From Bacillota bacterium (lineage in GTDB: Bacteria > Bacillota > Sulfobacillia > JAJYWN01), in NCBI GenBank assembly GCA_021791495.1, contig JAJYWN010000068.1:1-64000 (forward strand): a DNA stretch of 64,000 bases, in the 5' to 3' direction. The notes below the pieces were generated by a model. It saw only the letters and a list, made by a program, of their open reading frames with translations, had not been told where the DNA came from and did no database searches. Positions 9,237-45,479 of the stretch are shown here, piece by piece. Within the stretch, counting starts at the first letter, position 1, and each line of letters begins with the position of its first letter. The translations under genes and the position numbers were made by a program.

Positions 9237-9788
9237 GCAGTTGCCAGAGCCCCTTTCGGATTGGAGCCGAAAGGGGCTCTGGCTGTTGACAAGGTCTTCG
9301 CCTCCAGCCCTGGGCCCGAGGAAGGAGAGGACGCCACTTCCGCATTGCCCGACTCTGATTGTGCCATGGAGAACTATAATGTCGTTCCGGGACTCGTTTG
9401 TGCAAAGATGGGTGTGTCTGGAATACCCGTTTGGTTCCAAGGAGGGTGCTTAGCCGAGGTGTGAACGTCGACAGAGACTACACCGAGTGACGACCGGAAA
9501 CGGCCTGGTTTCTTAGGTAATCGTATTATCGCTGGCAGACTGCGGGGTTGTGGTCATCCACGTCAATTGGCGTCGATGCAAACTGACTTCTGAATGTCTT
9601 CTTAGGCCCGGCACAGCATTTCACGTCCCTGAGAAGTACTCTGCCGACACCCCCATCCGGCTGTGGTCGGGTTACATGTGTACTCGTGACACCATCGATC
9701 TGTCGAAATATGGTCTGGAATCAACAGTTTAGTGCCAACCGGCACAATCCTCCGCAAAATTGCTGGGGGCAGACGGTGGAGGCACAAG
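9237..9788 (+). repeat. structured non-coding dispersed element, copy A
   Basis: About 550 nt, matching 44879-45427 with roughly 80-85% identity by eye and one or two single-base gaps. Order: GCAGTTGCCA, a locus-specific 16-bp perfect hairpin (9244-9259 with 9267-9282), GGCT..TTGACA..AGCC, a conserved block with ACTATAATGTCG at 9373-9384, a stem at 9516-9522/9552-9558, a palindrome at 9557-9576, and the best-conserved block near 9641-9700. Compensatory changes against copy B keep at least two base pairs. A shared 60-codon frame (9550-9732) differs more at codon positions 1 and 2 than at 3, so it is not protein-coding. It fits a structured RNA and/or a non-autonomous mobile element; the class is not recognised. 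Confidence 0.8.
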
Positions 9789-44878: not shown

Positions 44879-45427
44879 GCAGTTGCCAATACAAGACCCC
44901 GGGGAACACCGGGGTCTTCGGGCTATTGACAAAGTCTTCGCCTCTAGCCCTGAGCGTTAGGAAGGAGAGGACGCCGGTTCCGCATTGCCCGACCCCGTTT
45001 GTGCCATGGAGAACTATAATGTCGTTCCGGGACACGTTTCCGCAAGGACGGGTGTGTCTGGAATACCCGTTTGGCTCTAAGGAGGGTGCTGGACCGTGGT
45101 GTGAGCGGCGTCAGAGACTACGCTACTGGCGAGCGGAAATCGACTTGTTTGTTAGATAGCCGCATTATCGCTGGTAGACTGCGGGGTTATGGCTATCCAC
45201 GCCGATCGGCGTGGATGCGCGCTGACTTGTGGATGTCTTCTCAAGCCCGGCACCGCACTTCATATCTCTGAGAGGTGCTCTGCCGACACCCCCATCCGGC
45301 TGTGGTCGGGTTACATGTGTATTCGTGACACCATCGATCGCTCGGAATATGGTCAGGAATCGACAGTTTAGTGCCAACCGGAACAATCCTCCGCAGATAT
45401 GATGGGGCAGCCCGTGGGAGCACGAGA
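44879..45427 (+). repeat. structured non-coding dispersed element, copy B
   Basis: Second copy of the element at 9237-9788. It carries GCAGTTGCCA (44879-44888), a locus-specific 10-bp hairpin (44893-44902 with 44909-44918), TTGACA (44926-44931), ACTATAATGTCG (45013-45024), a 7-bp stem GATAGCC/GGCTATC (45155-45161/45191-45197) and a perfect 20-bp palindrome (45196-45215). The hairpin UUCCGGG-ACAC with GUGUCUGGAA (about 45025-45065) encloses a GCAA tetraloop. The 45285-45360 block is nearly identical to copy A. Here the element is bounded on the right by a hairpin (45425-45449) almost identical to its own 5' hairpin. It lies upstream of the aldo/keto reductase operon and downstream of the M20 gene. 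No protein is encoded. Confidence 0.8.
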
Positions 45428-45449
45428 CCCCGGGAACACCCCGGGGTCT
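45425..45449. terminator. hairpin after the M20 gene, near-duplicate of the element B 5' hairpin
   Basis: AGACCCCGGG pairs perfectly with CCCGGGGTCT around AACAC. It lies 30 nt beyond the M20 stop on the minus strand and could terminate that gene, although no T-tract follows in that direction. The hairpin at 44893-44918 has nearly the same sequence, so element B sits between two copies. Confidence 0.55.
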
Positions 45450-45479
45450 TCAAGCATTTCGCTTGTCTTTCTATCTACT

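Follow-up and report, generated by a model that had tools for sequence, protein, structure and literature searches.

The two diverged copies of a noncoding repeat, A and B, that lie in the 64,000-nt stretch of DNA analysed here (the window) are, with a probability that we would put at roughly 60%, non-autonomous mobile DNA elements that carry a hairpin at each of two inverted ends, depend on movement in trans and follow a plan like that of REPINs and BIMEs. In such a system, a protein encoded elsewhere would recognise the hairpin at either end, probably in a single-stranded or extruded state of the DNA, and would move or copy the unit to other intergenic sites, which for the family of A and B (F1) would lie just past GC-rich terminator-type hairpins.

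The repeat in the window and across the genome

The window is part of contig 22 of a 4.2 Mb genome assembled in 81 contigs. As a whole F1 unit, copy A spans 9285–9780 on the plus strand and consists of a left flank of ~72 nt, a conserved core of 393 nt (9357–9749) and a right flank of ~31 nt, all of them common to the close copies, while copy B spans 44926–45417, also on the plus strand, with a core of 392 nt (44997–45388). A BLAST search of the genome with 9285–9780 aligned A and B at 85% identity over 492–496 nt (E = 1.4e-154), in agreement with the original prediction of two alignable copies. The extent predicted for copy A, 9237–9788, holds for the part common to the copies (9285–9780), but its first ~45 nt (9237–9282) are a 16-bp hairpin whose sequence is private to A. 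The predicted copy number of two was too low, as the genome holds eight full-length copies (one of them a 62–67% relative) and many more distant relatives.

Seven of these eight are close F1 copies (A, B, C61, C77, C68, C64 and C41) with mutual identities of 79–85%, and the eighth F1-type copy, C62, is 62–67% identical to them and adjoins an istA/istB-like gene pair. The core is 392–393 nt long in all eight, and they occupy unrelated intergenic contexts on both strands. Six-frame translations of the eight copies gave no common open frame, none being open throughout all of them on either strand; the remnant of a protein gene was rejected on this ground, in agreement with the expectation that the repeat has no coding frame.

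A profile built on sequence alone from the eight F1-type cores (R1) and run on the same genome recovered further relatives, the clearest full-length ones at E-values of 3e-22 to 2e-11. A second family, F2, has core sequence at eight loci (C46, C50, C54, C28, C62b, C61b, C10 and C4), which are mostly 91–99% identical to one another and ~50% identical to F1; judged from this mutual identity among the eight copies, F2 appears younger than F1. Several F2 copies reach contig ends, as expected of high-copy repeats in assemblies. A third family, F3, has the same paired-end design, with inverted module pairs spanning ~313–334 bp, so that at least three amplified families, diverged from one another, are present in this genome. 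Two weak relatives at L057:2788–3094 (C22) and L119:3987–4179 (C2), whose flanks are alike in inverted orientation, look like a small fourth family. A TPP riboswitch at L053:778–883, ~1.6 kb from the C6 element, is an ordinary neighbour.

The repeat family matches no catalogued repeat or RNA family in the libraries searched, and is restricted to this genome among those searched. Consistent with the prediction of an unrecognised family, the Rfam check of the window gave zero matches at the gathering score and, around copy A, chance-level matches alone at E ≤ 10; none of the Rfam covariance models (OLE, ROOL, GOLLD, HEARO, group II intron and all others) matched any copy tested. A DNA search of 60 relatives found the F1-type element absent, and profiles R1 and R2 (the latter described below) gave nothing convincing when run on 153 further genomes from the class, of which three belong to the same order. 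Exact-pattern scans of GTDB genomes returned none at first and then two matches without the rest of the element, nothing credible; weak matches in class genomes lacked both ends and were treated as chance. Phage and plasmid collections held no element matches, nor did viral contigs by pattern, and an origin from any of these was rejected for want of such matches.

End modules, hairpins and the central motif

Each element is a conserved unit of ~390 nt bounded by two inverted 78-nt end modules, each with one 17-bp hairpin that forms within the same strand. In copy A, the left module (9357–9434, plus strand) holds GATTGTGCC, ACTA and the hairpin in this order and scores 66.2 bits with model R2; the inverted right module (9672–9749, minus strand) scores 63.4 bits. 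The corresponding modules of copy B lie at 44997–45074 (plus strand, 66.1 bits) and 45311–45388 (minus strand, 56.4 bits). The two stretches of copy A named as best kept in the prediction, 9361–9420 and 9641–9720, lie on or overlap these modules. Once right ends are reverse-complemented, both ends of 13 elements (26 in all) align gaplessly over 78 nt, as do the 45 modules of the final alignment. Model R2, built from 22 ends, finds at least one end module at 33 loci of the genome (E ≤ 1), the weakest of which are F3 members backed by an inverted partner module. The module consensus reads GATTGTGCC-N4-GGAACTA-NNN-TGTCGATTCGGGACAC-N16/18-GTGTGTCNNGARTACACAT, in which positions 24–40 pair with 57–73 (50 nt, i.e., a 17-bp stem and a 16-nt loop); in the 45-module alignment, GGAACTA-NNN precedes the stem in F1, F2 and most single elements and is absent in F3.

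Among 44 distinct modules, 76.6% of stem cells are paired (70.8% in shuffles), falling to 24–54% when the register is slid, and 11 of the 17 stem pairs change on both sides, counts that overstate independence because the sequences are related. The covariation score of the hairpin is 0.247 against 0.163 for shuffled alignments, none of 500 shuffles scoring as high. When arms were swapped between modules (from one or two elements per lineage), 0 of 5000 swaps paired as well as the own arms, with 29 of 5000 for left ends alone and 8 of 5000 for right ends alone. Because own arms pair better and the arms covary, the hairpin itself is conserved and not a sequence motif alone. The claim of a structured element thus stands in so far as real structure is present; what is found is one hairpin per end, the two being read on opposite strands, with no known-family match and no end-to-end covariation in most lineages.

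Between the modules lies a central motif, GTATTATCGCTGGCAGAC at 9523–9540 of copy A (plus strand, 167 nt from the left end) and GCATTATCGCTGGTAGAC at 45162–45179 of copy B (plus strand, read directly, following the motif as defined across lineages). Seven lineages have it at a distance of 166–167 nt from their left end (F1, C62, F2, C72, C13, C47, where it is GTATTACCGCAGATAGAC, and C16), across which element length ranges from ~360 to 402 nt and the sequence between left end and motif aligns poorly. This fixed distance means that the elements have polarity, and simple terminal recognition leaves it unexplained. The consensus CCGTATTACCGC of this motif, which is also present in L116 and L120, is presumably the reverse complement of the 16S rRNA 530-loop GCGGTAATACGG, a resemblance that may be chance.

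Quasi-palindromic TGTGT-N7-ACACA sites number 23 in the genome against 0 for a reversed-pattern control and lie nearly all inside elements. Together with the intergenic position of the F1 copies and the fixed spacing from the sites to the central motif, these sites would suit chromosomal targets of a host DNA-binding protein (for nucleoid organisation, gyrase or termination) that were repeated by chance, comparable to the host roles proposed for BIMEs. We consider this very improbable, as families that differ by ~50%, copies that are truncated or deleted, and same-order relatives that lack the elements fit an essential architecture system poorly.

Several of the same features could be read as those of an RNA: in a new class of multi-copy structured RNA, the copies would be transcribed, the hairpins and the central motif would be RNA features, and the products would act in trans or regulate neighbouring transcripts. 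The covarying module hairpins, the nearly fixed core length of the eight F1-type copies and the fixed position of the central motif all agree with this, as do some internal F1 base pairs with changes on both sides and the better folding of most copies relative to shuffles. Conservation is also uneven: private F1 substitutions affect 13 of 95 and 20 of 104 columns in the end modules, about half the frequency in the middle (61 of 197), so that selection may still be acting on individual F1 copies once they have inserted. The case for an RNA or host function rests mainly on the fixed motif, this pattern of private changes and the two-sided internal pairs, none of which the mobile-element reading explains.

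The two ends of an element are less easily read as halves of one transcript. Read inward on the module strand, GU wobbles outnumber AC mismatches at both ends (GU:AC of 23:10 at the left, 19:7 at the right), whereas a single transcript would be expected to show the opposite bias at the right end; although it could in part stem from conservation of the motif sequence, this bias speaks for a pair of equivalent ends that work on opposite strands in the manner of REP/iREP pairs. RNAalifold proposed a rod-like giant RNA, which was rejected as the conserved structure: outside F3, left and right ends show no covariation, and the two ends of an element resemble each other no more than ends taken from different lineages do (own ends 59.9% identical, swapped ends 57.8%, with 829 of 5000 swaps doing as well). 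When F3 is counted in, own ends are more alike (41 of 5000 swaps do as well), which reflects that the F3 ends are, as a group, unlike those of the other elements. Fold z-scores against shuffles are modest and scattered for F1 (−0.6 to −5.7) and often strong for F2 (−1.6 to −7.3), and promoter and terminator scans of the elements gave no convincing frame. Two ends that form hairpins as DNA are thus a better fit than a single long transcript, and, with no Rfam match and with transposon-like ends and a deletion derivative in F2 (see below), a structured RNA appears rather unlikely to us: an RNA function of the elements is possible, not favoured.

Termini, target sites and candidate enzymes

The outer left end of F2 is sharp (CTAGTAGAGCGGTTCCTAAATGGCTTGGTGG) and common to nine copies with unrelated flanks, and the right end, TATTAAGGAATCGCTCTACT, has a short inverted match to it. 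One F2 derivative of ~145 nt (C65) has its core deleted internally, and five F2 copies (C50, C28, C54, C62b and C4) are truncated on one side. These outer F2 ends lie outside the module pair, which indicates that the modules are not simply transposon termini.

Directly upstream of copy A stands a GC-rich hairpin (9244–9282, no strand assigned; read directly and from the alignments), and hairpins of different sequence occur at the same distance upstream in six of the seven F1 copies. The hairpin at copy A is probably terminator-type target DNA. B and C68 have a similar hairpin on their other side too, nearly a copy of the first (Smith–Waterman scores of 42 and 47, vs. at most 27 for mismatched pairs): at copy B, AAGACCCCGG..CCGGGGTCTT at 44893–44918 on the left and a second hairpin at 45424–45451 on the right, 3′ of a minus-strand peptidase gene (neither assigned a strand), and at C68 a second copy some way outside the element. 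These pairs, seen at two of the eight copies only, could be long target duplications formed by insertion at a terminator; short clean target duplications at the element copies were looked for and not found. The upstream hairpin had also raised the idea of a group IIC intron, which was discarded as no intron model matched and neither a GTGYG start nor a domain V was seen by eye.

No module pair in the genome, whether sought by end pattern or by end model in this gapped assembly, leaves room for a transposase gene between its two members. Six Y1_Tnp matches were found, at least four of which are copies of one IS605-type element, and no end module of the gapped assembly lies near any of them, so that a RAYT/IS200 partner was rejected. 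The near-identical IS605-type copies at L132, L133, L134 and L135 (C44, C51, C60 and C73) include one with a stop codon inside the Y1 transposase and others that are split or cut by contig ends. Repeated end sites and the istA/istB-like genes beside C62 had suggested IS21, but no module pair flanks such a gene in the scan with the end model. A truncated transposase-like ORF at L047:3176–3746, which we take to be of IS1634 type, abuts the right core end of the F2 copy C50; it is the only copy in the genome, has no Pfam match and no module-like end upstream, and was set aside as a partner.

Such neighbours bear on a more conventional alternative, in which a DDE transposase (its gene lost or in an assembly gap) would move the unit as double-stranded DNA, as it does a classical MITE whose termini are long inverted repeats, the 17-bp palindromes being binding sites and the hairpin a by-product. 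The shared consensus of the long inverted ends, the lack of coding capacity, the short outer inverted repeat of F2, the ORF next to C50 and the gene pair next to C62 are all compatible with it. The paired arm changes across lineages, however, exceed what two inverted binding sites need, and as neither an autonomous copy nor a short clean target duplication was found, we regard it as unlikely.

The original prediction had offered a mobile element spread in trans or a multi-copy structured RNA. The mobile part is supported by the dispersal of the copies, the sharp F2 ends, the deletion derivative and the absence from the relatives searched; a large structured RNA was not demonstrated. Non-autonomous, trans-moved DNA is also favoured by the 33 module-bearing loci, the gapless modules and the covarying hairpins. 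Against it stand the lack of a transposase-bearing element with such ends and the few plausible target duplications, as do F2 outer ends beyond the modules, one-side-truncated F2 copies, rarer private F1 changes at the ends and the fixed central motif. More tentatively, the elements may form a distinct class of hairpin-ended mobile DNA, recognised by their 78-nt inverted modules and by a central motif that is polar and keeps a distance of 166 nt; this class would have diversified into several families in one lineage and would depend on a transposition enzyme.

Comparison with known repeats

REPINs and BIMEs consist of REP hairpins that stand in inverted pairs and are mobilised by RAYT/TnpAREP (PMC3116915, PMC8266576). 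The elements described here resemble them as inverted hairpin pairs that are mostly extragenic, noncoding and present in many copies per genome, with putative movement in trans, a spacer less conserved than the ends, and compensatory changes. They differ in size, with 78-nt modules and a 17-bp stem where REPs have 20–50 nt, and a pair span of ~290–400 nt, as opposed to GI REPINs, in which 71 bp separate the 16-mers. The GTAG/CGTC tag of REPs is absent from the 45-module alignment, in which ACTA precedes the hairpin instead (except in F3), and REPINs have a linked RAYT, whereas none was found linked to these elements in the gapped assembly; the elements also carry an oriented central motif. They would work like REPINs and BIMEs but are no member of that group, from which tag, size and RAYT association set them apart.

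Other palindromic repeats show partial likenesses. CGTC-tagged repeats have no dedicated transposase nearby, some REP dimers are inserted within palindromes, and TIRtrons are RAYT-like genes flanked by long inverted repeats (PMC3733652). The lack of a nearby transposase is shared with the CGTC repeats, and their palindrome-inserted dimers are comparable to the F1 copies beside hairpins; their stem is 8–9 bp with a CGTC tag, in contrast to 17 bp, no CGTC and a larger unit here. No RAYT-like gene flanked by element ends, as in TIRtrons, was found. Among bacterial MITEs, RUP and Correia/NEMIS are examples of a kind described as <200 bp and A+T-rich, mostly with TA ends and target duplications (PMC2229807). 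Inverted terminal repeats, the lack of an ORF and multiple copies are found in the elements as in MITEs in general, and with RUP and Correia/NEMIS in particular they share short noncoding dispersed units that have inverted ends, contain conserved sites and occur in variants of different size, yet at ~390–750 nt they are not A+T-rich, lack TA ends, have a hairpin within each end and yielded no IS partner. Ends common to an autonomous IS were found nowhere in the genome and without convincing matches class-wide, which places the elements, as far as can be tested, outside the known IS-linked MITE families. With OLE, ROOL, GOLLD, HEARO and group II intron domains they have only the size range and the lack of an ORF in common, the covariance models giving no match. 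To our knowledge, the symmetry of two equivalent ends is no feature of any of these RNAs.

Repeats of the REPIN type illustrate the ways in which very small selfish DNAs hold on in bacterial genomes, and we know of a dedicated enzyme for the GTAG-tagged kind only. Another design, in which the covarying hairpins are larger, an internal motif is fixed and the copies stand beside terminator-type hairpins, would, if true, provide an independent system in which to ask which enzyme moves hairpin-ended DNA, and would also bear on why copies stay constrained. For RNA discovery, the elements advise caution, as covarying hairpins in multi-copy intergenic DNA are not necessarily RNA.
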